Shown: positions 42,665 through 60,406 of the stretch, piece by piece | How the letters are laid out: each line of letters opens with the position of its first letter | Numbering within the stretch: position 1 is the first letter of the stretch | From: Isosphaeraceae bacterium | GTDB lineage: Bacteria > Planctomycetota > Planctomycetia > Isosphaerales > Isosphaeraceae | DNA: 60,406 bases | Reading direction: 5' to 3' | Assembly: GCA_025356475.1 (NCBI GenBank) | Contig: JANXSX010000137.1 | Location: 1-60,406 of the forward strand | Notes under the pieces: generated by a model | Databases searched by the model: none | Told to the model about the DNA's origin: nothing | What the model saw: the letters and a program-made list of their open reading frames with translations, nothing else | Position numbers and translations under genes: made by a program

Positions 42665-43834
42665 CTATCGACTCTGCACTCGTACATATTCGCCATCGTC
42701 TTCTACGTGCAGAGGAAACAGAGCCTTTCGAAGCAAGGCGTGTGACTCTCCCTCTCGCCAGCTCACGAGTGAGGGATGCACCTTCTGAGCGTGCGCAACA
42801 TGCTCCTTGACGGCAATCTGACGGCAAAGATCACTCTCGGGTCGGGTATCAAAGACCGCAGCCATCGTGCCTGGAAGCCAGTCAGATTCGGCCACACTCG
42901 CACGATGAAGGATCGTCGTTTGTCCCTCGAAACGACTCAAGGTGACGCCGGGGACATAGCGATTATCGCGGAGGAAGGCAACGCGATCTTCGGGCTTCGA
43001 CCGACCCAGAGGTCCCATCGGAAGGCAGACCTCTTCGAGGACCAGCTCACCCCAGAGACGTTCTCCATCAATCATCGCAATGTTGATGAGAACACGAGCA
43101 GGTGCGGATCCCACTTTGGAATGAAATCTGGCTTCGCAACAGATGGGTCGATCTGTTGGTGGTGGACCGTAAAAGCGAATCTCACGTATCGAGAGCGGGT
43201 AACTCGCGACGCCAGTCCCGACTTCCGGGCACCATTGACCGAGCGCATCATGGGGAATGCCATGAGTCGTGGCGTCGAGTAACCCGGGATTCAATCGCCC
43301 CGTAAATACAGAGCCCGCCGACGGATCCAAGGTATATGAGGAACCTCGTGAACCCATACGTAGGCTTGTCAAATATTGAAATGCCAACCCGTGGAAGAGT
43401 TGACCACTCCGATACGGAGAGGGCTGATCCACTCCAGCTTCAAGGGAGGGTGGGGACGGGGGGGAGAGTGGCCAGGATTCACTGAGTTGGACAGAACCGG
43501 TTGCGATCAACTCCCAACCGTTGCCACGTCCTGGCGTGTCGGCCAGAAGTCGGACCTTGATCTCGTCATGTGTCGAAATCATCGATTCTGTTCGAAGCTT
43601 TCTCGGTCGGTCGCAGATCAACCATCGGAAGGCGCGAACGTCTCGAAGGCCAACGACGTGAAATCCCGATTGAGCTGTGTTGGCAGCATCGGCGAGCAGT
43701 TCGGCCAGGTAGGTCATCGGCAGCGCAGGGAGCACGTAGGTTGGGCAATGGTCCCGAACCCACGGATGCTCATCAGGGTCAAAATCAAACTCGACGACCT
43801 GGGGAGCGGTCGGAGTTGGTGTGTCCGTTCCCAC
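42665..43834 (-). CDS. Stand-alone PKS-type dehydratase with short C-terminal extension
   Basis: 389 residues from GTG 43834, 5 bp after the stop of the large synthase upstream. Residues ~13-280 form a double hot-dog PKS-type DH: HPWVRDH with catalytic H29 (DHC, VLPALPMTY) and the acid D187 in LLDATTH (DxxxH form). Both catalytic residues are present, so it should be active. The last ~100 residues read SDWLPGTMAAVF, then CRQIAVKEHVAHAQ and HPSLV, a pattern faintly like the WxxKEA end of a phosphopantetheinyl transferase, but the N-terminal PPTase motifs are missing. It is the last gene of the operon and probably supplies an extra or trans-acting dehydration step. Confidence 0.78.
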   Translation of the reverse strand: MGTDTPTPTAPQVVEFDFDPDEHPWVRDHCPTYVLPALPMTYLAELLADAANTAQSGFHVVGLRDVRAFRWLICDRPRKLRTESMISTHDEIKVRLLADTPGRGNGWELIATGSVQLSESWPLSPPSPPSLEAGVDQPSPYRSGQLFHGLAFQYLTSLRMGSRGSSYTLDPSAGSVFTGRLNPGLLDATTHGIPHDALGQWCPEVGTGVASYPLSIREIRFYGPPPTDRPICCEARFHSKVGSAPARVLINIAMIDGERLWGELVLEEVCLPMGPLGRSKPEDRVAFLRDNRYVPGVTLSRFEGQTTILHRASVAESDWLPGTMAAVFDTRPESDLCRQIAVKEHVAHAQKVHPSLVSWREGESHALLRKALFPLHVEDDGEYVRVQSR

Positions 43835-43839
43835 TTGGA

Positions 43840-46800
43840 TTACTTCACCGCGACGGTTGTTCGGGCGTGCTGATGTTTACCTATGATACGCATGCCGATC
43901 TTGCCAGCGGTGTAGATCCGCAGCCCGTCGCACCAGAATGAAGCTTCGGCACGAACGAAGGCGTGATCGTCCTCCGTGCCAACCTCGGTGATCTCGGCGG
44001 TCACTGTGATCGCTTTGTTGGTCGGAACGACCTGGCCGCGAAACTTCCAATCGATCTCTCCGACCCCGATTGGCTCGAATCGAGGTTCAAAGCGATCCTT
44101 ATGCATGCCCGTACTAAGCATGTGAAACTGCAATAGTTGTGCCATGGCTTCGATGCCAAGGCTGCCCGGTTGAACGGGATCTTGGAAGAAGTGGGCCTTG
44201 AAGAACCACTCGCCGGGCTGGACATCCTTTTCAGCGCGAAGGGTGCCTAGGCCAGCTCGACCACCCTGTGGGTCTGTGTGAGTCACACGGTCGAGCATCA
44301 GCAGTCGACCACGATCAAGCCCGCAAGAACCGTTGAAGTATTCTGGGGGGCGACTTCGCAGGTCGATGACGGAACCCTTGGGGGCATCAAAGACAGCCTT
44401 GGCGGCTGCATCGAACGGGGCCCCAACCTGCTCCACCAGCGAGGCAGGGGGGAAGAAGCCGAACATGGTTTTCAGCGAAAAGATCGGTCGATCGCCTTGC
44501 GTGCATTCCACCTGAAACGCAGTCAAGGTGGTGGCACCCGACCGCGACAGGCTCGTCAATGTGGAACGTGTGATCAACTTACCACCATTGGGGATCACCG
44601 ACCCGTGGATCTTGCCTGAGCCGTCAAGGTTGCGGAACCGCATCTCTTGAGGAGAATGCGCTGCACAGCCCACGAACGATGCCAGCCACCCGCAAGGCTG
44701 CAACGCGGCTTCAGTGAGCACAGAGATAGGCATCGCCTGGTTGTTGGTGTCGCCGAAGTACCATTCGCTTGGCGTCACATCGAGCTCGGCCTCGACCGAG
44801 ACGCCGGCTTTGATTTGCCCAGGCTCGCTGGGCATCTTGGTGACTCGACTCACGAAGTGGTAGGGTGGGGCGGGGAGTCGAGGGACACCAATCGGGCTAT
44901 CAAAACGCGAGTACATAACGCCAAAAGCATCACTTGGGCGTCCTAAAGCACACGCCATCATCGCCGCGTGGTCACCCCGAACATCGCCTGCGGTCGCGGC
45001 TCGTCCGGGTTCCTGCTCAACCCCGAACATTGTTGGATCATCATTTAGAGGCCATGCGGGGGTCAAGCGAATGCCCATCGCCCGGCAGTGGAAGGCTTTA
45101 AGGCCATCGACAGAGCAGAGGACATCCGCTTTGAGGGCTGGCTCATCACCATCGACAACGGACTCGACAAAGACTTCATAGGTTAGCACGCGTGAGCGCG
45201 GAATGACTTGACCACGGCAACGCATCTTGAGTTCATGACTAACGAGTGGCTCGAATCGCCAGCCATCCCGGTCGATTGTCAGCCCGAGGCTAGTCATATA
45301 GATGGCTAGAGCCTGCATGCAGCCGTCGAACATCAGCGTTCCAGGCATGCATGGGTCGTTCTTGAAGTGGCCGGGGAAGAACCAGGAATTGGGCGTGATA
45401 TCGAGTTCTGCGTGGAGGTAACCCCGCCCCCACGGGCCGCCGGAATGATCGAGTTTGGTCACTCGATCAATCAACATCATCTCACCACTGGGGATGCCTG
45501 GAGTGCGTGAGTGGGGCGCAGCGCGTTCGAAACCGGGTCCAAAGCACGTGTACGCATTGCCTGATGCAAAGGCCTGGAGATCTTCCTTAGAGAGCGAGCT
45601 TTTATTGAGTGCGACGAGGGGCGGATCGAGCCTGGCACTCGTGTCATGCTTACCCGTCTCGGCGTCCCAGAGGACCCCTTCCGAATCATCGAGTTCAGCC
45701 TGGGTAAAGAAGCCTGCCTGGCCGTTGCGGACGCTCATCCGCAGCTTCCCATCAACATAGCAATCGTAGTGGAAGAAGAAGAGACGGATCTCTCCGGTCC
45801 GAGCATGCCCGTCGAGGTGGATATCGTAGTGAAGCGTCTCGCCAGGCTTTGCCAGCGGCCCATGATAGGTCAAGTCGCAGCTCAGCAGGCGATACCGGCG
45901 CGTGCCACGCACCAGGAAATCGACACCTAGGTATGAGATCAAGAGAAGGTCCGCTTGACCCGACTCGATCATGATTCCTGGTGGCATCCGACCGTGGTGT
46001 AAGTACCATGAGTCGGCTCGAACGTCGGTCTCAGTCGAGATCGAGCCGGTCCCCATCGAGCCTGCTTCCGCAACAAGGCCGACAACACGATCGGCCAGGA
46101 GTAACGGCGGCATCGGCATCCGCACTTGGATCTCGTATTGATCTTGCTGAGTAAACAAGGGTCCGAATACATCTGAGATCTTGCCACCAGCCATATGTTC
46201 AAGCTGGGCTCTGCTGAGCGTCAATCCTTGACTCGGCAATGGCTTGCCGGGTTCAACAGCCATAACGACCGGTGTCGGCGGAGTCGGTTTAACGACCGGC
46301 ATCGGTGTCGGACGCGACAACTCGTTTCGGACTGGCGGAGGGACAGGGGGTAGGGGAGGCGCGATTGGTTGTGATCGCTGGACTGGGAAGGGTGTTCGTA
46401 CCGAGGTGGGGACAGGTCGAGAAGTTCCTATGTTTGCCAGATTCCGCGTCGTCGCGAGGAATGAAGACTGAGCGTCTGCCATCGCCGCCAGCCAACTGCG
46501 GTGGGTTGCGGTCACTTCCGAAGTGAGGCTGTTGGCCGTGCCCAAGGGGGCTGATGCGACCGGTGCGGGCACGAACGGACGATCCTGTCTCGGAACAGGT
46601 CGAGCCGTTGAACCGTTCGTATGCGCTGCCGGTACCGGCCCGACCGATTGAACCCAGAGATCATCCACAGGTGGTAATATAGGAGGCACGGGCATTTCTT
46701 CCATATCAAGATCAAGCTCAATGTATGCGTTGAGCTTTGGTTCCGGCATCATCGTATCGGCGGCGAGCGGAGCGGAAGGGGCGGGGATGACCACCTCGGG

Positions 46801-49800
46801 CAGGCGGGTTGGCAGTTCGATCGTTGGTCCCTGGGAGAGGTAGGGAGAGGGAGAGATCTCCTCAACGATCGCGAGGACTCGGTCCAGGTTGATGGGAGCA
46901 CCCGCTACCCAGAGCCGGGCCGTTCCTTCGAAGAGTTGGCGGATCGGGGGACGACCGGCGAGGTCAAATGAGACCGTCAGGTGTTCTCGATCACCCAGGA
47001 TGCGCTCGATCGAACGGCTGAGCATGTTGCGCGGACCGTGCTCGACGAAGATTCGCACGCCATCTCGGTAGGCCGCTTCCACGGTCTTAGGGAAATCGAC
47101 GGTGTTACAGGCTTGTTTGGTATACGCATCGGCAGCCGCATCGGCGGAAGCTTTGAACCACGTATTGATCCCGTTGGAATAGAAACGGACATCGTCCACT
47201 TCGCGAGTTGGTCGATGATGGACGCGATGCCATAGATCGGCCACCGGGGTGACTTCGGGGCAGTGAGCAACCACCGCGAACGACATCCGTTGCGAGCGGG
47301 CCTTCAACTGGGCGATGACCGCCTTGCAATCGTCGTATTCACCGTTGATCGTACATTCATTAGGTGAGAATATCAGCGTGATCCACACACGAGGCTTGCC
47401 CGCGACTGCCGCGCGGACCTTCTCGACATTATGCATCAAGTGCCAACTGGTGTAGTGGATCGGCTCGTTGGGCTTGAGCCACCCTTTCCCTTCCCAATAG
47501 GTACGGACACTATGACACTCGCCACCGAGTTGGTGATCAGGGAGCCCCGAGTTCTCCCAGTCGGCGAGGCGTTGGTCGGGGTCGTCCCAGGCACCTAGGC
47601 CTTCGAGTGCGGAGACCTCACCGGAAGAGACGCTCAACGTTGCCTGGGGCCGGAGCCCCATCACATTCAAACTCCAGTCGACGTGGAACTGACTCATCGC
47701 CCACGAGCCGATCACACGGTCATTCACAGCCAGTTCGGTCACGGTCGATCGGGGATAAATTGCGGATGTGACCCGGTCAAGATCCCCCTTGCGGCGGAGC
47801 GACTCCCAGAGATTTGGCATCGCCAACAATAGGTCTTGTGCCATGCCGGGATAGCCGACAGCCGCAGGCGCGAAGACATAAGCAATCTCGCCGGAGATCG
47901 GTGCTGAGCCAAACCTCGCTCCGGGAATGTGGGGTTCGCGTCCGGCTTTGAGTTCGCTCAGTGCCTTCTCGCGGATCACGCTCGAAGCGGCCAGGTCATC
48001 AGCGACAATTGCCAGCCGGACCGGTCCGTCGCCGCCGGGTTGGTCGGCCTCGACCCGTTGAATCAGATCTGCCCGGTCGGAACCTGCGTAGCAACGGAAA
48101 GAAACCTTCGCAAGCGGAACTCGGCGGGCGGGTCGATCAATGGGTGCAGTAATTCGCAGATGATGACGACTTCCACCGAGGGCGGAGACGTGAACGTCCA
48201 CAGTGCGACGCTCAGGCGAGGCGAGCCAAGGAACCGCCAACCCAGTTTTTCGGGGCAGGGCGGCATATGAGCACGCCACGATTCCAGCAGCGGTCAGCAT
48301 CAGTCCCGACGCGGCGTGCGCATGGCCGAACCTGGAGGAAAGCCCTGCGTCCTCAGAATCGAGATGCAGGTCAAGTTCGGCAGAGCCTGAGGTATGATCG
48401 GCAGGTAAGATGGCGAGTATGTCTTGGCCGGCAGCCTGGGCATCGGCAAGTCTGCGGACGACCAGGACGACGGCTGCATCACCGGGAAGTTGCCGATCCG
48501 CAGAGAGTTGATCGCCGCTCGCGGTACGATGAACAGTCTCACAACTCAGGTCGACTGCGGCGACGATGGCCGCATCGATTTCACCGGCAGCGATTGCGCG
48601 TCGGGCAAGTTCAAGAGCCTTTAGACCCGAAGCTTCTTCGGCACTTATGGTAAAGCCAGGACCGTCCAGGTGGAAGAAGCGGTTGAGCTGGTTCGCGGGG
48701 ATGTTGGGCATCGTCCCTTTGACACGTGCCGCTGTGAGCGAATGAGCCCACGATTCCGCCTGTCCAGGGTCGAGGGCAGTTCGCCACCTTCCACCATGTC
48801 GGGCAGATTCGGGGTCACAACCCATGCCGACATAAACCCCAGTTCGTTCTCTCGGCAGTTGGAGATTCGCAAGAGCTTCAAGACATGCGAGCTTGAGCAA
48901 CGTTTGCTGACCGAGGGTGTCAGGAAGTTCCTGGGGAGGGACCTTGAGCTGGGATGGGGTCACATGGAGAACCCCCGCCGGGAAGCCCATTCCCCCTCCG
49001 GCGAGTTCGGTCGGTATCGGACCTTCAACGAGTAGGTGTCGGACGAAGTCTTCGGTCCTTAATCCACCAGCCGCGCGCACTCCCAACGAGATGACAGCGA
49101 GATCGATCTGGGGAGGTTTGACCGCAGGAGGAATCCGGGTTGGATGCGTCTCGACCCATTCTTCAAGAATCAAGTGAGCATTACAGCCGCCGAATCCGAA
49201 CGCGTTGATCCCCGCGCGTCGCGGGCCATCCGCCGTCCAGTCTTCCGCTTGATCTAGGAGCCGAAACGGGGTTCCCCAGAGATCGACAGGCTCGTCGATC
49301 CCCAACGTGGGAGGTCGGACACCGGCTTGCATCGCGCCTAGAACTTTAAGGATCGCAGCGCCGCCGGCTGCGGCAAGAAGATGACCAAGATTCGATTTGA
49401 GCGACCCGATAGGCAGGTTTTTTTGACCTTCGAAGACTCGACCCATACTCGTCAGTTCGGCGCGATCACCGAGGACCGTTCCGGTCGCGTGACATTCGAT
49501 CAATGAGATGGTCGCCGGATCGATGCCTGACCGATCATAGGCATCGCGAAGTGCGCGATACTGGCCGACAGGGTCTGGGGCAAGGAAGCCTCCACCCGAG
49601 CCGTCGTTCGAGAGACCGACACCACGGATCAGGCCAAGGATGGGCTGGCGATCCGCCAGGGCATCTTCCAATCGTCGTAATGCGAGGATGACCGCGCCCT
49701 GGGCGGGGAGGAGTCCGTCGGCCGAGCGATGGAAGGGACGAGATTGCCCGGTCCGACTGAGCGCGCCAAGCGCGGTGAAGCCAAGTTGGAGAAAGAGGCC

Positions 49801-50460
49801 ATCGGCCGCATTGACCGCACCGGCGAGCATCAAGTCGACGCTCCCGTCGTGAAGCTGGTCGCACGCGAGTTTCATCGCATAGAGCGCCGAGGCACACGCG
49901 GCATCAAGAGCCATTGCCTCGGGATTGCAACCGAGCGCCCTGGCCGCGATTGACGCAGGGAGCCCCGAAGAAAACCGGTCGCGGGAGCGTGGCACGACCT
50001 GATTAGTCGAGCCTTCCTGACGGTTGAGCCAGACCGACTGAGCGTATGCGGTGTGCCCGTCGGTCGGGTACGAGAGGTTGCCAATCACCAGACCTGAGCG
50101 CTTTGGGGTCCGCGTGGGTGCGTAGCCGGCTTCGACGAGTGCCTGACGGCCAGCGTGGAGCAGCCAGCGAATCTGTTTGTCGGTAGCGAGGATCTCGTTG
50201 GGATCCAGGGCGAACCCATTGGGGTCGAACGCCCGGTCGAATCCGCGCACGAAGCCACCCCGAAGAGTCCAAGCCTTGTCGGGCGTGGGCTTATCGGGGT
50301 CGGTCAGGAAGCGACTGGGCTCGGTATTCCAATCCTCGCGTTCGGCATTGCTGACCGCTGAACGTCCGGAATGGACCAATTCCCAGAGTTCGGCGGGTGA
50401 TGCCGCGCCCGGTAGGATACAGCCCCGACCGACGATGGCGATCGGCGGAGGAGCCGTCAT
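43840..50460 (-). CDS. pfaC: PfaC-like synthase: KS-CLF-AT-four hot-dog DH domains
   Basis: 2206 residues. KS ~1-435 with C189 in DAACAS, H324 in ECHATGT and H360 in NLGH. Chain-length factor ~450-775, where E609 (SAEEAS) replaces the Cys. AT-like ~858-1200, with S945 in SVSSGEV: the nucleophile is kept but the preceding His is Val. A Pro-rich linker ~1215-1410. Four FabA-type hot dogs follow: DH1 with H1488/H1489 (LHHGRMPPG), DH2 with H1698 (FFPGHF), DH3 lacking the His (YFGDT), DH4 with H2090 (FFKAHFF). The pairs act as pseudo-dimers in PfaC proteins. It performs condensation and dehydration/isomerisation of the chain on ACP. Its ATG overlaps the upstream megasynthase stop (ATGA), so the two are translated together. 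The AT and four-DH layout resembles myxobacterial Pfa3. Confidence 0.88.
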   Translation of the reverse strand: MTAPPPIAIVGRGCILPGAASPAELWELVHSGRSAVSNAEREDWNTEPSRFLTDPDKPTPDKAWTLRGGFVRGFDRAFDPNGFALDPNEILATDKQIRWLLHAGRQALVEAGYAPTRTPKRSGLVIGNLSYPTDGHTAYAQSVWLNRQEGSTNQVVPRSRDRFSSGLPASIAARALGCNPEAMALDAACASALYAMKLACDQLHDGSVDLMLAGAVNAADGLFLQLGFTALGALSRTGQSRPFHRSADGLLPAQGAVILALRRLEDALADRQPILGLIRGVGLSNDGSGGGFLAPDPVGQYRALRDAYDRSGIDPATISLIECHATGTVLGDRAELTSMGRVFEGQKNLPIGSLKSNLGHLLAAAGGAAILKVLGAMQAGVRPPTLGIDEPVDLWGTPFRLLDQAEDWTADGPRRAGINAFGFGGCNAHLILEEWVETHPTRIPPAVKPPQIDLAVISLGVRAAGGLRTEDFVRHLLVEGPIPTELAGGGMGFPAGVLHVTPSQLKVPPQELPDTLGQQTLLKLACLEALANLQLPRERTGVYVGMGCDPESARHGGRWRTALDPGQAESWAHSLTAARVKGTMPNIPANQLNRFFHLDGPGFTISAEEASGLKALELARRAIAAGEIDAAIVAAVDLSCETVHRTASGDQLSADRQLPGDAAVVLVVRRLADAQAAGQDILAILPADHTSGSAELDLHLDSEDAGLSSRFGHAHAASGLMLTAAGIVACSYAALPRKTGLAVPWLASPERRTVDVHVSALGGSRHHLRITAPIDRPARRVPLAKVSFRCYAGSDRADLIQRVEADQPGGDGPVRLAIVADDLAASSVIREKALSELKAGREPHIPGARFGSAPISGEIAYVFAPAAVGYPGMAQDLLLAMPNLWESLRRKGDLDRVTSAIYPRSTVTELAVNDRVIGSWAMSQFHVDWSLNVMGLRPQATLSVSSGEVSALEGLGAWDDPDQRLADWENSGLPDHQLGGECHSVRTYWEGKGWLKPNEPIHYTSWHLMHNVEKVRAAVAGKPRVWITLIFSPNECTINGEYDDCKAVIAQLKARSQRMSFAVVAHCPEVTPVADLWHRVHHRPTREVDDVRFYSNGINTWFKASADAAADAYTKQACNTVDFPKTVEAAYRDGVRIFVEHGPRNMLSRSIERILGDREHLTVSFDLAGRPPIRQLFEGTARLWVAGAPINLDRVLAIVEEISPSPYLSQGPTIELPTRLPEVVIPAPSAPLAADTMMPEPKLNAYIELDLDMEEMPVPPILPPVDDLWVQSVGPVPAAHTNGSTARPVPRQDRPFVPAPVASAPLGTANSLTSEVTATHRSWLAAMADAQSSFLATTRNLANIGTSRPVPTSVRTPFPVQRSQPIAPPLPPVPPPVRNELSRPTPMPVVKPTPPTPVVMAVEPGKPLPSQGLTLSRAQLEHMAGGKISDVFGPLFTQQDQYEIQVRMPMPPLLLADRVVGLVAEAGSMGTGSISTETDVRADSWYLHHGRMPPGIMIESGQADLLLISYLGVDFLVRGTRRYRLLSCDLTYHGPLAKPGETLHYDIHLDGHARTGEIRLFFFHYDCYVDGKLRMSVRNGQAGFFTQAELDDSEGVLWDAETGKHDTSARLDPPLVALNKSSLSKEDLQAFASGNAYTCFGPGFERAAPHSRTPGIPSGEMMLIDRVTKLDHSGGPWGRGYLHAELDITPNSWFFPGHFKNDPCMPGTLMFDGCMQALAIYMTSLGLTIDRDGWRFEPLVSHELKMRCRGQVIPRSRVLTYEVFVESVVDGDEPALKADVLCSVDGLKAFHCRAMGIRLTPAWPLNDDPTMFGVEQEPGRAATAGDVRGDHAAMMACALGRPSDAFGVMYSRFDSPIGVPRLPAPPYHFVSRVTKMPSEPGQIKAGVSVEAELDVTPSEWYFGDTNNQAMPISVLTEAALQPCGWLASFVGCAAHSPQEMRFRNLDGSGKIHGSVIPNGGKLITRSTLTSLSRSGATTLTAFQVECTQGDRPIFSLKTMFGFFPPASLVEQVGAPFDAAAKAVFDAPKGSVIDLRSRPPEYFNGSCGLDRGRLLMLDRVTHTDPQGGRAGLGTLRAEKDVQPGEWFFKAHFFQDPVQPGSLGIEAMAQLLQFHMLSTGMHKDRFEPRFEPIGVGEIDWKFRGQVVPTNKAITVTAEITEVGTEDDHAFVRAEASFWCDGLRIYTAGKIGMRIIGKHQHARTTVAVK

Positions 50461-53400
50461 CGCACCGTCTCCTCGCGGAGCGACGACGTTAACGCGTACA
50501 TCTCCAGCCCACCAAGATACATGACCGGTCGTCCTGTCTGATCACGGAGCAAGACCTCTGCAGAGAGCCCATCGCGGCGAATTTGGCCTCGGAAGTCGCA
50601 GTGCAACGGACCTGTCGAAGGCCCTTCGGAACAAAGGATCAACCGACCGATCAAGGCGGGCAAACTCTGACGCTGCAACGAATGACCGGCCCAAAGCATT
50701 GGCAATTGGAGACAGCCATCCAAGGCGACGGGATCGGTCAGGTAAGGCCCACCCGCCCATTTCATGGTCGTGGTTCCGATGAGTTGCCCTGAACCACCAT
50801 CGGTGGCCATGGTGCCGAGCCCCGTGATCGCGTGAAAGCTCGGGCCGTGGAACAGGGGGCCGTCATAGATTTCAGCCATCTCGAATGGCCAAGGCTCGCC
50901 AGTGGGCGCGGTGACCTGGGTGGGGGGCTCGATCCGTTGTCCTGCCGCGACGAGCTTACCGGTTGCTGAGTAGCGAACATGCCCCGTCGCGTCGCAGAGT
51001 TCCAGGCGGACGACGTTGGCATCGCTGGTTGGCTTGACGACGACCGTGAGGGCGACACTTCGGGTTTCGAACTCAGGGAGCGGCACTCCACGGAGCACGC
51101 GCATCTGCTCGAGTTCACCCAACCGGCGACCGGGGAAAGCCTCATGAACACCCCGGGCGAACAGTTCGACAACCACGGCCGCCGCGACGACCGGGATGTC
51201 ACGCACCGTGTGGTCCGCGAGGTAGGGCATCGACTTTGCTCCTGCTTGCACACTAAAGCGGAAGTCGTCTTTGGTCCCCGTCTTGGGGGCTTCCAGCGAG
51301 CCCCCCATCACCAAGACAACGTCGGTCTGGGTTGCGGCGAGTTCATCGGCGAAGAGCTTTGAGCCCTCTTTAAGTCCGAGCAGAGGAATGCCCATGGCCA
51401 GGAAATGCTTGCGGAGCGAAGGGGTGACCATGCCACCATCCCAAGGGCCCCAGCAGAAGGACTTGACCAGGCAGCGACCGGCCCGACGTCGTGACTCGGC
51501 CAACGCAACCTGGTTGAGGACGGCATTGGCAGCAGCGTAGTCCGACTGGCCCTTATTTCCGCTGATCGCAGCGACCGAACTGAAGATGGCCAGTACCTTT
51601 AAGGGATCGTCGGCGGTGGCAGCGAGGATGTTAGTGATCCCCTGAACCTTGACGCTGAAGACCTTATCGAACTGCTCGTTTGTCTTTTCGAGAATCAGTT
51701 TGTCGGCAAGCACACCTGCCGCGAAGATGACCCCTGATGGGGCTCCCCAACGTTTGCGGACCTCGCCGACAGCCGTCGAAGTTGCGGACGCATCGAGGGA
51801 GTCCGCCGGCAAGTAGATCGCTTCGCTCCCAGCCGTTTGAAGCAGGATGAGGGTGTTGCGGACTTCCCGCTCGGCAAGAATCTGACCTGCGCGGTTCTTG
51901 GCATCGGCCGGGGTGATCGACTCGCCGCGTTCCTTGGCTTTGGTGAGGAGGACGTTCACCAAGGCGTTCTGGTCGACCGCTCCCTGATATTCGCTGGGCT
52001 CGTCATGGAGACGGGTCCGACCCAGGAGGGCAATCTTGAGCTTGGTTCGGCCAGCGAGTTCCACCAGGCAAGCGGCGGTCACCCCTCGCGCCCCGCCGAC
52101 TGCGATGATGACATCGCCGTCGGTTAGCACATTTGCAGCGATTGGGGTAGGCTCAGAAACGGTTCGCAGGACAAAGCGACGGCCATCGGCCATGAGGCCA
52201 ACCTCATGCTCGTCCCCTCCGCAGAGGAGTTCAGAAACGATCGCCTTGGCAATCTCGGCGGACGTGCGAGTGCCTCGTTCGCAGTCGATGGTTCGGCCTG
52301 CCAAAGTAGGCCACTCCACGCCTGCTGTTCGGGCGAGAGCCGACAGCCCCCCGGCCCAGGCTTGAAATCCTTGGGCAGGAGCGACCAGGCCAAAACTGCC
52401 ACCGGTATCTTGGAGAATGATTAGTTCACCACTCGCCTGAGCGAGTCGGGGCCCAGCCCAGCGGAGCGATTCTAGCACCGAACGATGGACCGAGCCTGCG
52501 GATGTTGCTGAGTCGAACGATCGCAAGCCGTCGAGCACAATCAGCGAGCTGATCTCGTCGATTGGCCCACCCGGATGGACGACGACAGCCCGGAGCCCCG
52601 CCTCTTCAAGTTCGTCGCAAACAGCGTCCGCGACACCATTTCCGTCGTCGGTCACGCCGATCAAGCCTTCGGGACGAAGGGCGCGACCAGCGAAGCCACT
52701 CACCCCTTTTTCGACGGCTCGCCAGACCGACCGGGAGACTTCGGAGGCCACCTGTGCCTGGGTTGGGACTGACGCGGCGGCCACGGCAGCAGCGGTTGGA
52801 GCCCCGCCGACCTTCGTATTGATGTAGGCGACGATCTCTCCCAAGGTCTTCAATGGTCCGAGCTCGTCCATCGGCAACTCGGGGAGGCCGGGGAGCGCGG
52901 ACTGTAAGGCGGAGAAGATCTCAACTCGCTTGATCGAGTCGACCCCGAGATCTCCCTCCAGCTCCATCCCCAAACCGAGCACATCGCGGGGATAACCCGT
53001 GGTCTTGACGACCGTTTCCAGTAGGGCTTCCGTGACTTGGGCGGCGGAGAGTTGAGCGGGTGCCGGTGCCTGAGCGGGTCGGGCTGACGCCGCGATTGGC
53101 TTCGTTTCGTTGGGCTGGGGGGGGGCCGATCCGACCTTTTTACTGATCAGCTCGACGATCTCGCCCAAGGTCTTGAGAGGGGCGAGTTCCTCCATCGGCA
53201 ACTCGGGCAGGCCGGGGAGCGCGGACTGTAAGGCGGAGAAGATCTCGACTCGCTTGATCGAGTCGACCCCGAGATCGCCTTCGAGCTCCATCCCAAGGCC
53301 GAGGACGTCGCGGGGGTAACCCGTCGTCTTAACCACTGTCTCTAACAGGGCTTCCGTCACTTGGTCGGCGGTCAGATGGACACCCGAGGGGGCCGAAATT

Positions 53401-56400
53401 GTGTTCGTTTGGGCGTGGGCGACCGAGCCTGGGCTCGAAATTGGGTTCGTTTTGTTGAGTGCAGGCGAGGCGATCGCGGTCTTGGTCTTGGTCTCACCGA
53501 TCTTAGACTTGATCAGGTTGACGATCTCGCCCAAGGTCTTGAGTGGCCCGAGCTCATCCATCGGCAGTTCGGGAAGGCTGGGGAGTCGGGTCTGAAGGGC
53601 CGAGAAGATCTCGACTCGTTTGATCGAGTCGACCCCCAGGTCTCCTTCGAGCTCCATCTCCAGGCCGAGGACATCGCGGGGGTATCCGGTCGTTTCGACA
53701 ACCGTTTCGAGCAACGCGTCGGTGACCTGCTCTACCGTGAGTCCCGCGATTGGCTCGGGGGTGTGTACTACCGCTGGTGCATGGGATCTTGCGATCGGGG
53801 CAGAAACGGCGGTTGGCTTGGGAGCGTAGTGTGACGCTTCGCCGTTCCCCAAACTTGCGGGAGGGGCGACAGCACGCGGTGCCTCGTATCGAACGGGCTC
53901 AGGGGCGGGAGCTTGCAACGCCGGGCGTCGGACGCGAGGGGCTTCCTGGACAGGCGAGATCTCGGAGGACGGGGCGCGACCGCCGCCGCCACGAGCGAGC
54001 GATTCCATGGTGCGGAGGAAGTCTTGGTGACCTCGCAGCATGTTGTGCTGGAAGTCGCGCTGAGCTTCCGCGATCTGGCCGAACATCGAGTCGGCGACGA
54101 CGTGTGATTGGGTTCTCTCGTCCATCTCGGTCTCGTCTTCGAATTCGTGGTGCTCGGGTGCGGGCAGATCGTCGAACGCGTCTTCGGTCGACCAGTTGGT
54201 CTCGCTCGGGTCTTGAGCGAATGTGGGGCTATGGTCATAAACATGACCATTCACCTGCGGATCACTCGGATAGGCGAGGCCATTCGACCAAGCGGTTTCT
54301 TGCGGGCCGACCGGAGTTGGTGGAACCGGAGGCAGATCCAGGCGAATCGCGGGGGCAGGGGCGGCGCGGGGAGCTTCGATGACCTTGGTCGGGTTCGGGG
54401 CTGGGAGGGCAGCTCCGCCACCGACCGGCGGGTATGGCTTCTGGTAGAGCGCACCGGTCAGGGTGATCATTGGCTTGGGCTTGCCAACCGGGATCGGGTC
54501 AACCTGGGGGATGAAACCGTGCCAGAGTTCTTCCCAGCGGATCGGGACGCCCGCGACTGCAAGCTTGGCGAGCAGGTTCCAGAGGGAAGTGATTCCATTA
54601 ACCCCACGTCGGTCGGTCGCGAGGGCTCGGAACGGTCGACCCTTGAGGCAAGCTTCGACCAGGCCGGTCAGTACGGCGTTGGGTCCAACCTCAATGAAGG
54701 TCCGGGCCCCTTGGCGGTAGAGTTCCTCAACCTGTTCGACGAACAGCACCGGCTTCGCAAGTTGATCGGCGAGCAGCGCTTTGGCAGTATTCGTCTCGTG
54801 GGGGTAGGCTTGAGCTGTGCTGCAGGCGATGACCGGAATCTGGGTCGCGCTGAGCGAGATTCCGTTCAAGAAGGCACCAAAGGCGTCGCGGGCACCGGCG
54901 ACGATTGGGGTGTGGAACGCTGAAGCGACCGGTAACCGGACGAAGCGGACCCCAGCCTTCTCGAGCCTGGCTTCGGCTGCTTCGATCACCGATACGGTGC
55001 CGCTGATGACCATCTGCTGTGGGCTGTTGTGATTGGCGAACACAAGCTCAGGTTCCAGGTCTGCAAGCAGTTTCCGAGAGACCTCGACCGGACCGACAAC
55101 CGCAGACATCGCGCCTGGAATCGTGGCGGCGGCGGCCATCGCCTCGCCGCGGGCTCGCGAAGTCTTGAGCATGTCCTCTTCAGAGATGGCCTTGGCGGCA
55201 TGAAGCGCGACAACTTCGCCGAAGCTATGACCGGCGGTGAGGTCGGGGACGATTCCTACTGCGGTCAGGACTCGGTAAGTCGCCAGCGAGGCGGTCCCAA
55301 GCGCGGGCTGAGCCCACTGGGATCGCTGGAGCGATGCACGTCGCAAAGCCTCGCCGTCGGGTCCGTGCGCAGGGGGCATGAAGACGATATCTTGGAGTCG
55401 TTCGGACCCGCCGGAGCAGACTTTGGCACCAAGATCCCAGGCGGAACGGGCGTCCTCGCGGAACATGGCGAGGTCGGCCCCCATGTCGGGGTACTGGCTT
55501 CCCTGACCTGGGAAGAGGAACGCGACCTTGCCGATTTCGCTCCCAATCCCCAGCGAAATCCCTTCGCCCAGAATCTGTTCGCCGGTGTGATCGGTCGGGA
55601 GTTTCGCCAAGCTCTCCGCCGCCGAGTTCAGTTTGAGCGTGAGATCGGCCTCGTTTGCGGCAACAATCGCCAGCCGGACGCGGTGATCCGGCTTCCAGGT
55701 GGTCTGGGACTGGTGGGCCAGGAACCCCAGCGACCCCGGCCTCATCTCGGAGGAACCAAGTTCGCGGCAACGCGCGGCCGCATTCGCAGGAGTATCGGCA
55801 CCAACAAGGATGACTTCGCAAGGGGTGGTCCGGGTCCGAGGTGCTGTTCGACCCGTCCCGAGGTACTCTTCCAGGGTCACGTGGAAGTTGGACCCACCGA
55901 AACCGAACGAGCTCAGCGATGCCCGACGGGGCTGGGCATCGTCCCGAATCCAGGGCCGGGCCTTGGGGTTCAGGTAGAACGGCCCCCCCTCGGCGAGGAT
56001 CTCCGCAGCCGGGTTCTCCGCCTTGATAATCGGCGGCAAGACCTTGTGTTGGAGCGAGAGCACAACCTTCAACAGGCTCGCGGCGCCTGCGGCCGCCTTC
56101 GTATGACCGATCTGCGACTTGATGCTCCCGAGTGCGCAACGCTTGGGCGGAAGGTTGCTAAAGACCGTCTTAAGACCAGCCAGCTCGGCGGCATCACCGG
56201 CAACCGTGCCCGTGCCGTGCGCCTCGACCAGTTCCACAGACTCGGGACCATAACCGGCATGCTCATAGGCACGCAGGTAAGCACGCACTTGGCCATCGGC
56301 CCGGGGTGCATAAATGCTCTTACTCCGCCCATCGGACGAGGCACCACAGCCCCGAATAAGCGCGTAGATCGGGTTTCCTTCCCGCTCCGCATCCTCCAGG

Positions 56401-57251
56401 CGGCGGAGCATTACCATGCCCACTCCTTCGCCCATCATCGTGCCGTCGGCATCCGAGGTGAACGGGCGGCAGTCGTCGCTCTTGGACAACGCCCCGGTCT
56501 TGCTAAAGCACATGTACATTAAAATATCATTGAGTGCATCCACGCCACCCGTGATTACGGCGTCGGACTGACCCAGATAGAGTTCGTCGAGCGCCAGGTG
56601 CAGGGCACCGAGCGAGCTGGCACATGCGGCGTCGATTACGCAGTTGGAGCCGCCCAGGTCGAGGCGGTTAGCGATCCGTCCGGCGACCACGTTGCCGAGC
56701 ATTCCGGGGAAGGTGTTCTCCTGCCACTCAGGGAAGTGGGAGGAGATTTTCTCGCAAGCCTCTTGGACCTGGTCTTCACCCATGCCGAGTTCGCGAAGGG
56801 CTTTGACCCAGACCGGGCGCTGAAGCCGACCCGCCATCTGGACACAAAGCTGGGTCGCGGAGGCAACGCCGAGGATCACGCTCGTCCGTTCGCGGTCGAG
56901 CTCGTGGAAGGCACCTTGGGCGTCAGTCATTGCTTGTTTGGCGACAACAAGCGCGAGGAGTTGGGCGGCGTCGGTCGCGGGAAGAATGGTGGGGGGGACG
57001 CCGAAGCCGCTGAAGTCGAAGTCGACTGGATCAAGGAACCCGCCGCGCTTCGAATAGACTTTATCGCGAGTAAGCGGGTCGGCATTGTAGAAGTCTTCGG
57101 TCAACCAGTGGGTTGCGGGGACGTCGCTCAGGAGGTCACGACCGCCCACAATATTCGACCAGAAGCTCTGGACGCCCGACCCGCCCGGGAACAAGGCCCC
57201 GAGACCAACCACAGCGATGGGGGGGAATGGATCACTCAGCAGACGACCCAT
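50457..57251 (-). CDS. pfaA: PfaA-like synthase: KS-MAT-ACP-ACP-ACP-KR-DH
   Basis: 2264 residues with a GGAG site 8 bp upstream. KS ~1-465: C210 (DAACAS), H345 (EAHGTGT), H383 (GHTKAAAG). Malonyl-type AT ~575-900: S676 in GHSFGE, H780 in SAFHTP. Long flexible linker ~930-1165. Three ACPs: Ser 1209, 1331 and 1439, each in LGVDSIKRVEIFSALQ. KR ~1700-1970: GGARGVTA (1719-1726), S1891/S1892, Y1905, N1909. PKS-type DH ~2005-2255 with H2014 (LADH) and D2178 (LDGCLQ). It loads malonyl units, extends and reduces the acyl chain. The C-terminal DH is what separates this Pfa2-type layout from marine PfaA. All catalytic residues are present. Confidence 0.9.
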   Translation of the reverse strand: MGRLLSDPFPPIAVVGLGALFPGGSGVQSFWSNIVGGRDLLSDVPATHWLTEDFYNADPLTRDKVYSKRGGFLDPVDFDFSGFGVPPTILPATDAAQLLALVVAKQAMTDAQGAFHELDRERTSVILGVASATQLCVQMAGRLQRPVWVKALRELGMGEDQVQEACEKISSHFPEWQENTFPGMLGNVVAGRIANRLDLGGSNCVIDAACASSLGALHLALDELYLGQSDAVITGGVDALNDILMYMCFSKTGALSKSDDCRPFTSDADGTMMGEGVGMVMLRRLEDAEREGNPIYALIRGCGASSDGRSKSIYAPRADGQVRAYLRAYEHAGYGPESVELVEAHGTGTVAGDAAELAGLKTVFSNLPPKRCALGSIKSQIGHTKAAAGAASLLKVVLSLQHKVLPPIIKAENPAAEILAEGGPFYLNPKARPWIRDDAQPRRASLSSFGFGGSNFHVTLEEYLGTGRTAPRTRTTPCEVILVGADTPANAAARCRELGSSEMRPGSLGFLAHQSQTTWKPDHRVRLAIVAANEADLTLKLNSAAESLAKLPTDHTGEQILGEGISLGIGSEIGKVAFLFPGQGSQYPDMGADLAMFREDARSAWDLGAKVCSGGSERLQDIVFMPPAHGPDGEALRRASLQRSQWAQPALGTASLATYRVLTAVGIVPDLTAGHSFGEVVALHAAKAISEEDMLKTSRARGEAMAAAATIPGAMSAVVGPVEVSRKLLADLEPELVFANHNSPQQMVISGTVSVIEAAEARLEKAGVRFVRLPVASAFHTPIVAGARDAFGAFLNGISLSATQIPVIACSTAQAYPHETNTAKALLADQLAKPVLFVEQVEELYRQGARTFIEVGPNAVLTGLVEACLKGRPFRALATDRRGVNGITSLWNLLAKLAVAGVPIRWEELWHGFIPQVDPIPVGKPKPMITLTGALYQKPYPPVGGGAALPAPNPTKVIEAPRAAPAPAIRLDLPPVPPTPVGPQETAWSNGLAYPSDPQVNGHVYDHSPTFAQDPSETNWSTEDAFDDLPAPEHHEFEDETEMDERTQSHVVADSMFGQIAEAQRDFQHNMLRGHQDFLRTMESLARGGGGRAPSSEISPVQEAPRVRRPALQAPAPEPVRYEAPRAVAPPASLGNGEASHYAPKPTAVSAPIARSHAPAVVHTPEPIAGLTVEQVTDALLETVVETTGYPRDVLGLEMELEGDLGVDSIKRVEIFSALQTRLPSLPELPMDELGPLKTLGEIVNLIKSKIGETKTKTAIASPALNKTNPISSPGSVAHAQTNTISAPSGVHLTADQVTEALLETVVKTTGYPRDVLGLGMELEGDLGVDSIKRVEIFSALQSALPGLPELPMEELAPLKTLGEIVELISKKVGSAPPQPNETKPIAASARPAQAPAPAQLSAAQVTEALLETVVKTTGYPRDVLGLGMELEGDLGVDSIKRVEIFSALQSALPGLPELPMDELGPLKTLGEIVAYINTKVGGAPTAAAVAAASVPTQAQVASEVSRSVWRAVEKGVSGFAGRALRPEGLIGVTDDGNGVADAVCDELEEAGLRAVVVHPGGPIDEISSLIVLDGLRSFDSATSAGSVHRSVLESLRWAGPRLAQASGELIILQDTGGSFGLVAPAQGFQAWAGGLSALARTAGVEWPTLAGRTIDCERGTRTSAEIAKAIVSELLCGGDEHEVGLMADGRRFVLRTVSEPTPIAANVLTDGDVIIAVGGARGVTAACLVELAGRTKLKIALLGRTRLHDEPSEYQGAVDQNALVNVLLTKAKERGESITPADAKNRAGQILAEREVRNTLILLQTAGSEAIYLPADSLDASATSTAVGEVRKRWGAPSGVIFAAGVLADKLILEKTNEQFDKVFSVKVQGITNILAATADDPLKVLAIFSSVAAISGNKGQSDYAAANAVLNQVALAESRRRAGRCLVKSFCWGPWDGGMVTPSLRKHFLAMGIPLLGLKEGSKLFADELAATQTDVVLVMGGSLEAPKTGTKDDFRFSVQAGAKSMPYLADHTVRDIPVVAAAVVVELFARGVHEAFPGRRLGELEQMRVLRGVPLPEFETRSVALTVVVKPTSDANVVRLELCDATGHVRYSATGKLVAAGQRIEPPTQVTAPTGEPWPFEMAEIYDGPLFHGPSFHAITGLGTMATDGGSGQLIGTTTMKWAGGPYLTDPVALDGCLQLPMLWAGHSLQRQSLPALIGRLILCSEGPSTGPLHCDFRGQIRRDGLSAEVLLRDQTGRPVMYLGGLEMYALTSSLREETVR

Positions 57252-57421
57252 GATGACTCCAGTCAGGGGAGGACGGTCGACCGTCCTTCAGTCGCACCAA
57301 CGGGAAGGGCTGAAGCCCACACCGCAGGGGGGGAAGATGTCAAAAGGTGAGAAATACGAGGTTTCAGCGGTTCGCGAGTTCGTCCCCGCGTGTCAGGTCA
57401 AATGACCGCGATGCAGAACGA

Positions 57422-59080
57422 TCAACGAAGAGGTCGAGGGCGGAAGTCGAACGCGGCGGCTGGAACGGGTACACCGTGACATCGCCATTGTTGCATTCGA
57501 GTAATCTGGGCCGCCCCTTCCAAGATGTTGCGGGCAATCTGGGTCACTGTGCGATTCTCAAGGGGCTGGAGGAAACTGCCTCGGGTCCACGCGTTGAAAG
57601 CACCCATCGCCGGACCACACCAGATCTGGTAGTCGGTCTTGCGATCCGACGCCCCCCGCCGAGCCCAGCTTGAACCACCACCGAGATACCAGCGGAAGAC
57701 GAGTGCCATACGATGCTTCGCGTCGGCCTCAGCCCGCTTCGCCTCGCGGGGCTCGCGCGCTTGCCAGAAAGACTTGGTTTGCTGCCAAATCTCTTCGACG
57801 GGTGCCTTGAACACTTCGTGCTCAAGCTTGGTCTTGATGTCCGCAGGGAGTGATTCCAGGCTGTCATAACGGCGGTAGAGATCATAAAGGGTCTGGGCTC
57901 GCATGGCGAACAAGGTGCCTCGCTTGAGGACCTGCACCTTCACGCCTAACTCGAACATGTCGGCTGCCGGTGCCATCGTGACATCGGCGACTCCGGCATC
58001 GACCAGCATGCGTTTGCCTTCTTCGGAGAGGCCCGACTCAACCGCGCTCTGATTCACGGAGCCGGTCAAGACGTAGGCAGCGCCAAGAGCAAACGCGGCT
58101 GCTGCGGCTGCGGGAGTGCCAATCCCCCCCGCCGCGCCGACGCGAACAGCGCGACTGTATCCATGATGCGCGGAAAGTCGGTCGCGGAGGGCACAAATCG
58201 CGGGCAAGATTGCCGTCAAAGGGCGATTATCGGTGTGACCCCCCGAGTCGGCTTCAGAAGTGATGTCCTCGGCGACCGGCAGGGTCGCCGCAATCCGTGC
58301 CTGCGTCTCGGTGATCACACCGCGACGCAATAGTTCCGCGAGCATCTCCGCAGGAGGAGGGGCCATGAACTGCTCAGCCGTCTCAGGCCGCGAGATCTTG
58401 GCGAAAACTCGGTGATCGCGCACCACAGCGCCATCGGCACCGACCCGAATGCCCGTCGTCGCGTATCGAACCACGGTCAAGGTTAGTTTCATGAAGGCCG
58501 ACGCAGAAACGTTCCGAACCTGGCGTTCGATGAAGAGGTCGACCGTCCGCTCCTCATCCTGAGGCGTCTGCGGAGAATGGATGAGGTTGGCACCCCAGGG
58601 AAGGTCTTGTCCGCCAAGTCCTGCGTGAATCTCGTCGAGCCCGGCCCGAATCTTATCGAGAGGGAGGCCGGCTGCCCCGAAGAAGCCAAGCATTCCTGCT
58701 TTCGCCATCTCGACAGCCATCCGAGCCGTCGCAATCCCCTGCGCCATCTCGCCCGCAATATAAGGAAAGCGGACCCCGTGGATCTCGTTGAACGTTCGAT
58801 CCCCTAGCCATTCGGGATAGATGGGCGGTAGGCAACCTTGGAGCTGGTAGGCACCTGACCGGGACCCAAACGCGACTTGCCCCCCTTGTCCCATCGCGAC
58901 ACCGAGATGACCGGTCGCCGCATCGCGCACGATGAAACAGGGCTCACGAAACCGACCCGCCAGCGACAAAAGCCCTTCCTGGGTGAAGGCAGGGGCTTCG
59001 GAGCCGGGCGTGTACGAACCGAGGGCGGGAAGTCCGACTGACTTACTTCTCTGAGTAGGTAGGGCAGTGGTGCTATTCAT
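57422..59080 (-). CDS. pfaD: PfaD-type enoyl reductase (trans-acting, FMN)
   Basis: 552 residues from ATG 59080 (GGAGAG site upstream; the frame is open to 59230, but the extra part lacks similarity). An NPD/2-nitropropane-dioxygenase-like TIM barrel: GEMAQGIATARMAVEMAKAG, GMLGFFGAAGLPLDKI, VGAAGGIGTPAAAAAAFALG and AAYVLTGSVNQSAVESGLSE (FMN-phosphate loop). Its C-terminal extension (YDLYRRYDSLESLP, then WQQTKSFWQAR and GPAMGAFNAWTRGSFL) is typical of PfaD. It reduces enoyl-ACP intermediates of the megasynthases. It is the first gene of the operon, 170 bp before pfaA, as in the pfa1-pfa2-pfa3 order of myxobacteria. Confidence 0.92.
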   Translation of the reverse strand: MNSTTALPTQRSKSVGLPALGSYTPGSEAPAFTQEGLLSLAGRFREPCFIVRDAATGHLGVAMGQGGQVAFGSRSGAYQLQGCLPPIYPEWLGDRTFNEIHGVRFPYIAGEMAQGIATARMAVEMAKAGMLGFFGAAGLPLDKIRAGLDEIHAGLGGQDLPWGANLIHSPQTPQDEERTVDLFIERQVRNVSASAFMKLTLTVVRYATTGIRVGADGAVVRDHRVFAKISRPETAEQFMAPPPAEMLAELLRRGVITETQARIAATLPVAEDITSEADSGGHTDNRPLTAILPAICALRDRLSAHHGYSRAVRVGAAGGIGTPAAAAAAFALGAAYVLTGSVNQSAVESGLSEEGKRMLVDAGVADVTMAPAADMFELGVKVQVLKRGTLFAMRAQTLYDLYRRYDSLESLPADIKTKLEHEVFKAPVEEIWQQTKSFWQAREPREAKRAEADAKHRMALVFRWYLGGGSSWARRGASDRKTDYQIWCGPAMGAFNAWTRGSFLQPLENRTVTQIARNILEGAAQITRMQQWRCHGVPVPAAAFDFRPRPLR

Positions 59081-60028
59081 TCGGGCTCTCCAGGTCTCGC
59101 GAGGCTCGCCGGCCAGCTCGGTCATGTTCCGCGAGCGGGCAACTGGCCCCCTGCGTCCGATCACCACAAGGCACTCTAGGCAAGATGCACCAACAAAAGG
59201 ATTCGTGATCGATGAGCACACAGTCAGCATCAGGGGCGAACGAGCAAAGACGACTTCAGGCGGCGGGAGGTTAAAATGGAGGGTCCAGCGATTTTGGATA
59301 ATCCTTGCCCTAGGCTTCGATCCATTTCCCCTGAAGGGATAGAGTTCGGGGTGAACTCAGATTATACCAACCACCGGCTCGCACCATCGCCAGAATTATC
59401 GAGAGGAGGTCGAAATGGCTCATCTCCTCTGGCGGGGGAACCGAGGTAACTAAGTTCATGGAGGGCTTCTCTAATGTCCGCGCACACAGAATTCGCCCGA
59501 GAGCTGAGCCTGCAAGCATAGGACTCCGACCTTGCTCGAAATCGCCCTTCGACTCATAAAAAGGAAATCCAAAGTCGGAGTCTGCCAACCAGGGACTCCT
59601 AGGTTAACATAATGCGAACCACTTTGGGGAGGGTCACTCCAAATCTGTGTTGAGACTCAATCCTACACACGAACTCGGGGACATTTCGGGGTCATTCGAA
59701 ACACGCTCGCACACATGCACACAATACGGATCCACGGGGCACATTTCAGGCAAAATTTCCTAGCACGCGGCGGCTGGTGCGCGCCTCCGGATTCCTCCAG
59801 AGTTACTCAAGGCCTCCAGGACACCCCGAACTACCAGTTCAGGCCGTAGATTGCCTTTCCAAACAGTGATCGTTACCCAAATTCGCGCACCATTTGCCGA
59901 TCGCTTGGAAATTATCGTCTTCTCTAGCTCACTCGGTGAGGTGGGCCATCGAGAGTCCAGACTACTAAAAGATCAGAAAGGAACGTAGTCTGAAATGGCC
60001 AACCACCGAACCAGGGACATGAGCCGCT
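59081..60028. other. Long intergenic region upstream of pfaD
   Basis: 948 bp without a convincing gene, visibly AT-richer than the cluster. It must hold the promoter of the lipid synthase operon (reading left). A 57-codon frame at 59276-59449 (+) has a purine-rich leader (GGGAGG) but no recognisable product, so it is not annotated. No clear operator or terminator was identified. Confidence 0.5.
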
Positions 60029-60332
60029 ATGTTTTATGAACATGATAAATTTTGGTACACGGTTTTTGCTATTTGGGGAATTTTATGCTTTGTGCCAATA
60101 CCAATCCACCAAGGTGGTCCCTGGATAGGGAACGTGCCATTATGTTTTGCGTACGCATTTCCATTGGCAACATGGCCTCTTATCGGCGGGCGGCATTAAT
60201 GAACATTTCTGGGTGCCACTGGTCGTACTCGCAATAGTGTCCGGAACTTGCCGATTACGGACGAAATGGAATTGGCATATGTTGATTATTCGGCGATTTG
60301 ACGATGTGCCTGAGTGGATCGTGGTCTTTTGA
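60029..60332 (+). pseudogene. Possible small membrane protein with a frameshift
   Basis: ATG 60029 opens a 56-codon hydrophobic frame (FWYTVFAIWGILCFVPIPI, FAYAFPLATWPLIGG) that stops at 60199. A second frame overlaps from about 60190 and continues with NEHFWVPLVVLAIVSG, then WHMLIIRRFDDVPEWIVVF to 60332. Joined at the ggcgggcggc tract near 60185-60194 they would give a ~100-residue protein with two membrane helices. A one-base indel or sequencing error in the G/C tract explains the break. Family unknown. Confidence 0.35.
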
Positions 60333-60406
60333 GGGTCGTCAACGCGCATGCGGTCGCAGGGCCTCGTCCGCAGGGCGTGGACGGGCCTGATTGGCTTACT
60401 TGGGTT

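Follow-up and report, generated by a model that had tools for sequence, protein, structure and literature searches.

A predicted Pfa-type lipid synthase operon of a planctomycete with a putative Pfa3 dehydratase encoded by its own gene

Contig JANXSX010000137.1 of an Isosphaeraceae bacterium (GCA_025356475.1) carries four co-directional open reading frames (ORFs) on the minus strand. Three of them resemble the components of Pfa-type (PUFA-type) lipid synthases, and the fourth encodes a lone dehydratase. The locus raises the questions of which lineage this synthase comes from and what the stand-alone dehydratase is. The whole stretch of DNA that was analysed, 60,406 nucleotides long, is referred to as the window.

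Organization of the operon and its active sites

The genes and domains of the operon have the following positions in the window:

57422-59230, minus strand: pfaD homologue (Pfa1), 602 aa; trans-acting FMN enoyl reductase with a FabD-type helical insert (TIGR02814, PF03060 and PF21607)
50457-57251, minus strand: pfaA homologue (Pfa2), 2264 aa; KS-MAT-3xACP-KR-PKS_DH (TIGR02813, Pfam, active sites)
55812-57221, minus strand: KS1 domain of PfaA (PF00109/PF02801; KS tree)
52806-53741, minus strand: three tandem ACP domains of PfaA (Pfam, motif alignment)
50460-51311, minus strand: DH1, the C-terminal PKS-type DH of PfaA (PF21089/PF14765)
43840-50460, minus strand: pfaC homologue (Pfa3), 2206 aa; KS-CLF-AT-four FabA-type hot dogs (Pfam)
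46921-47940, minus strand: AT2, a PfaB-type acyltransferase within PfaC; its GxSxG motif is present as SVSSG
43876-46125, minus strand: four FabA-type hot dogs of PfaC in the order pseudo, DH, pseudo, DH
43835-43839, minus strand: pfaC/DH4 junction; 5 bp from the pfaC stop TAA to the DH4 start GTG, in differing frames
42665-43834, minus strand: stand-alone PKS-type dehydratase (putative DH4), 389 aa, GTG start, conserved C-terminal tail included
42668-43012, minus strand: C-terminal tail of DH4, about 115 aa, with a weakly AcpS/PPTase-like fold

The pfaD and pfaA homologues are separated by 170 bp, and pfaA and pfaC overlap by the 4 bp of an ATGA. An alternative in-frame ATG of pfaD at position 59080, its codon 51, is a plausible start because homology to relatives begins only at about residue 60-77. 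Upstream of pfaD, positions 59231-60406, which extend to the contig end, contain no ORF of at least 100 aa; on its downstream side, the operon is flanked by convergent unrelated genes. Further away in the window, positions 13330-16092 encode a complete MmeI-type combined restriction-modification protein. A preliminary description of this DNA had reported four same-strand Pfa-type genes with ATGA and 5-bp junctions, and the ORFs, Pfam and NCBIfam agree with it. The four-gene Pfa-type arrangement is confirmed as real and far beyond chance.

The curated NCBIfam models pfaD_fam (TIGR02814) and omega_3_PfaA (TIGR02813) match PfaD and PfaA with 623 bits (cut-off 449) and 1377 bits (cut-off 1010), respectively, and the AT region of PfaC, residues 856-1155, has a weak match of 53 bits to pfaB_fam. 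By Pfam, PfaA comprises KS, MAT, three ACPs, KR and PKS-DH; PfaC has KS and CLF together with four FabA-type domains and stops after the fourth hot dog. The catalytic motifs were compared in an alignment of the window with Minicystis rosea, two planctomycetes and one Streptomyces. The active cysteine of the KS is kept in both PfaA, where the motif is DAACAS, and PfaC. In PfaA, the MAT motif GHSFG is intact, the tyrosine of the KR is kept, all three ACPs retain the active serine (motif DSIK), and DH1 retains its catalytic histidine and aspartate, with the conserved proline of the first motif changed to alanine. In PfaC, the active cysteine of the CLF is replaced, and AT2 has SVSSG in place of GYSSG. 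Only the second and fourth hot dogs of PfaC contain the catalytic histidine plus aspartate or glutamate; the first and third are pseudo-domains, the same as in relatives. The presence of four hot dogs is rejected as a novelty, because two pseudo-DH/DH pairs are the normal arrangement of the PfaC of canonical PUFA synthases (PMC4882568, PMC9667614).

Judged by these motifs, the four genes constitute a complete Pfa-type lipid synthase operon, with nearly all active sites predicted to be intact. Some steps of the synthase may differ or be weak because of the loss of the proline from DH1 and the SVSSG motif of AT2. A discrete pfaE was not found in the genome; the PPTases that are present, one AcpS-type and one fused to a PKS, are candidates to activate the Pfa ACPs. 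Contig 228 of the genome (L004:2621-12630) carries a two-gene iterative PKS with the architectures KS-AT-ACP-KR and KS-AT-DH, the latter with a C-terminal phosphopantetheinyl transferase.

Placement of the synthase and the second operon of the genome

The genome contains a second complete operon on contig 79 (L001:137-18644, L002:7151-7954) with the gene order pfaD-pfaA-pfaC-oleABCD, in which an OleD-like reductase is last. This pfa-ole arrangement recurs across the phylum in at least 12 of the stretches read; it resembles the Type I clusters of Shulse and Allen and corresponds to the link with olefin synthesis that was proposed for that type in 2011 (PMC3098273). The planctomycete pfa-ole clusters, that of contig 79 included, share with the operon of the window the PfaD-first order, a PfaA ending in a DH, and a PfaC with the organization KS-CLF-AT-4xFabA; however, they lack DH4, are continued by oleABC(D), and form a separate KS clade (98). 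Gene order, the AT within PfaC and the terminal DH of PfaA had been read in the preliminary description as markers of the myxobacterial type. They are rejected as such, because all three are also found in the far commoner pfa-ole type of planctomycetes.

In the tree of KS1 sequences, the window groups with Minicystis, Streptomyces, and proteobacterial and a few planctomycete synthases (43 rows, SH-aLRT 99), and 32 planctomycete synthases of the pfa-ole kind form the other group (98). The PfaC tree has the same split from the ole type (SH-aLRT 100); in it the window branches early, together with a proteobacterial MAG (99). The KS of the window is separate from that of the genome's own PKS. Grouping of the KS with ordinary PKSs, which the preliminary description had named as an argument against a Pfa synthase, was not seen for the PKS sequences tested, in trees that contain neither true marine PfaA/PfaC nor hgl KS. 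When 321 genomes of Gammaproteobacteria were sampled for a separate marine-type PfaB, only two matches exceeded the cut-off; both lie in frames longer than 2400 aa and are therefore fused, and do not provide a separate marine-type reference.

An approximately unbiased (AU) test of the window with ole-type KS sequences and no outgroup gave p 0.51, which is uninformative on rooted membership, and the test was therefore rerun with a PKS outgroup. In the test of KS1 alone with this outgroup, joining of the window to the ole-type clade was not firmly rejected (p 0.073). The window is therefore better described as an early branch of the Minicystis lineage than as a member positioned deep inside it. 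A single KS1 clade uniting every planctomycete of this lineage was rejected at the borderline (AU p 0.048).

The AA/DTA-type PUFA synthase of Minicystis rosea, encoded by pfa1-pfa2-pfa3, has the same gene order and the same PfaA-terminal PKS-DH as the operon of the window, and its Pfa3 likewise contains an internal AT, two FabA-type DH pairs and an orthologue of DH4. The identities between the two systems are 59% for PfaD, 51% for the N-terminal half of PfaA, 45% for PfaC and 40% for DH4 (residues 8-386); the PfaC of the window is only 32% identical to the genome's own second PfaC. The orthology of DH4 and the identities favour placing the window on the Minicystis side. Taken with the trees, they indicate that the synthase belongs to the Minicystis rosea/Streptomyces (Type L-like) lineage as an early branch. 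The curated models, the KS and PfaC trees, and the identities thus uphold the earlier proposal that this planctomycete has a secondary lipid synthase of the Pfa type with a relationship to myxobacterial Pfa1-3.

Several other loci were observed in the course of the comparison. Another planctomycete of the same synthase lineage (L118 and L173) lacks DH4 and encodes a separate AT-like protein of 444 aa downstream of pfaC (L173:2649-3980). A plasmid collection contained only distant relatives of PfaD, with less than 60% identity. Contigs 82 and 4 of a planctomycete (G126) encode PfaD-type reductase domains in frames of about 9,000 and 10,500 aa, which are probably giant PKS/NRPS proteins.

The presence of two Pfa operons in one genome opens the possibility that the synthase of the window feeds the Ole system of the second cluster, and that both operons make polyunsaturated hydrocarbons (C31:9-like) instead of membrane fatty acids. 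A complete pfaD-pfaA-pfaC-oleABCD operon is available on the other contig, and OleA of Shewanella draws chains from the ACPs of Pfa (PMC6463001). However, it is the other synthase to which the ole genes are coupled; the operon of the window has no linked ole genes, and none of the loci read from its lineage contained a pfa-ole operon of the planctomycete kind. A supply of chains to the Ole system is therefore unlikely.

Identity of the fourth gene and the missing acyltransferase

The lone dehydratase is only weakly recognized by Pfam (23 and 19 bits), and a search of the PDB with its sequence returned the DH of CurH as the sole match (E 0.51). Its AlphaFold (AF2) model has a pLDDT of 92.7 and superimposes on solved structures of PKS dehydratases with Z of about 25. 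Searches in 59 relatives gave only weak matches within large PKSs. A scan of 40 stretches surrounding PfaD genes from the same phylum identified two, from the planctomycetes L046 and L069, in which PfaC does not end at the fourth hot dog but has a further domain like the lone dehydratase. The match is collinear and nearly full length (206 and 224 bits), and the domain is followed by an AGPAT-type acyltransferase (PF01553). A scan of named genomes yielded 80 PfaC loci including that of Minicystis rosea, the Pfa3 of which has the architecture KS-CLF-AT-4xFabA-DH4-AGPAT. The 29 DH4 sequences all group as a single clade (100/100) in a tree of dehydratases, apart from the DHs of PfaA and of ordinary PKSs, and the dehydratase of the window lies within a subclade of 26 rows (100/99) that holds the Minicystis DH4. 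The collinearity with the C-termini of fused PfaC proteins, the position within the DH4 clade and the PKS-DH fold of the model thus identify the lone dehydratase, at the level of sequence and predicted structure, as the DH4 of Pfa3 encoded as its own gene.

His29 and Asp187 of the window DH4 are invariant, His29 across 26 sequences. When the Minicystis DH4 is introduced into the synthase of Aetherobacter, the product changes, an effect that is abolished if the active-site histidine is replaced by alanine (PMC6731297); His29 is the counterpart of this product-steering histidine. The tail of DH4 spans about 100 aa, contains an A-V-K-[DE]-H motif and is conserved in all DH4 domains examined (the window and 25 DH4 loci). 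It is modelled with a pLDDT of 95, and Foldseek ranks AcpS phosphopantetheinyl transferases highest, with E of about 0.1. The tail is possibly a degenerate PPTase domain; an active PPTase is rejected since the matches to the AcpS-like fold are only weak.

DH4 of the window is a separate ORF in another frame than pfaC. By contrast, the Minicystis DH4 forms part of Pfa3 and precedes AGPAT. The proteins of L046 and L069, which come from the same phylum as the window and share with it the order KS-CLF-4xFabA-DH4, likewise differ in the fusion of DH4 and the presence of AGPAT, and no AT2 domain was detected in them. In a comparison of 297 genomes from the class to which the window belongs, a DH4 was found only here (446 bits; next best 87). 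The preliminary description had suggested that the stand-alone dehydratase may be new; this does not apply to the component, which is the putative DH4 of Pfa3 split off, as also happened in Streptomyces, but it does apply to the separate gene.

The pfaC and DH4 frames overlap by 33 nt, so a single-base error could in principle mimic the split. The genome is a draft of 232 contigs, and it could be argued that the fourth gene is an artefact of sequencing or assembly and that the true pfaC ends in a fused DH4. However, there is no long homopolymer within the overlap, a GGTGA about 10 nt 5' of the GTG is a possible ribosome site at good spacing, and the junction is as tight as the upstream ATGA. 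Furthermore, DH4 is also separate and directly after pfaC in Streptomyces sp. WM6378 (L123), where the junction reads TAG, 6 bp, GTG. An indel is therefore an improbable explanation of the fourth gene.

WM6378 resembles the window in the lack of AGPAT, but it has only 38-42% sequence identity to it and a single detected ACP. Its split is independent of that in the window, because its DH4 nests among fused DH4s of Streptomyces, which themselves lack AGPAT. Among 199 Streptomyces genomes sampled, DH4 occurs in three, once fused and twice as a smaller separate frame; the second separate DH4 belongs to a cluster in which no PfaC was found. Another rearrangement of the extra dehydratase was observed in the actinomycetes L087 and L115, which have an additional PKS-DH-like domain at the very C-terminus of PfaC, in L087 after AGPAT.

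The AGPAT at the C-terminus of Pfa3, a trait of Type L and myxobacterial synthases, is absent from the window, where the DH4 protein stops after its tail. AGPAT ends most fused Pfa3-DH4 proteins, yet many relatives of the synthase lack it too. Its relocation to another place in the genome is rejected, since a query with a Pfa3-type AGPAT over the rest of the genome gave no match. The genome encodes five separate PlsC-type acyltransferases, and hand-over of the product to phospholipids by one of these, or by AT2, is therefore plausible. The missing AGPAT and the altered motifs of the PfaA DH and AT2 could also be signs of a decaying cluster, in which the split of DH4 reflects degeneration and the lipid is no longer made. 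This is very unlikely, as all reading frames remain open across 16 kb, the catalytic residues are nearly all kept, and the genes are tightly coupled.

Proposed mechanism, product and significance

We consider it probable that the operon encodes a Type L-like Pfa synthase in which DH4 has been split into a translationally coupled gene and AGPAT has been lost. The MAT would load malonyl units onto the three ACPs, KS1 or KS2/CLF would condense them, and the KR would reduce the product of condensation. After the KR, the PKS-type DH together with PfaD would complete a saturated two-carbon step; alternatively, a cis double bond would be kept through the action of a FabA-type DH/isomerase. In trans, the free DH4 may dock on this complex and act on the same ACPs, biasing when double bonds are kept, like the fused DH4 of Minicystis. 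The product, which would be handed over by AT2 or one of the five PlsC-type acyltransferases, is, we infer, most likely a long polyunsaturated acyl chain, of about C20 or longer. An ordinary or heterocyst-glycolipid-type PKS making hydroxy or keto chains in place of polyenes would agree with the atypical AT and DH motifs and with the occurrence of PfaD-type ERs in polyketide pathways, but is very unlikely, as the PfaA model exceeds its cut-off by 367 bits, the KS stands apart from the genome's own PKS, and the PfaC has four FabA-type domains, two with intact active sites, which are lacking from the PfaC homologues of heterocyst glycolipid (hgl, Type F) clusters (PMC3098273).

Beyond the probable Type L-like synthase, it can be speculated that the free DH4 is a trans-acting switch that docks on both Pfa synthases of the cell or varies in dose, so that unsaturation is tuned and the two synthases make different polyenes; we regard this extension as improbable.

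Planctomycete Pfa-like clusters, synthases of Type L and DH4 domains in fused form are already known. What is new is that DH4 has a gene of its own, that this branch lacks AGPAT and that one planctomycete combines two Pfa lineages. In the literature searched, no papers were found that identify polyunsaturated lipid products of these synthases in planctomycetes. DH4 bears on the question of how Pfa synthases place double bonds, as one of a small set of domains for which an effect on the product has been demonstrated. A natural synthase with a separate DH4 allows this domain to be added, removed or mutated without cutting a very large polypeptide. With both a Minicystis-like synthase and a pfa-ole operon, this planctomycete is predicted to have polyunsaturated lipids of two kinds.
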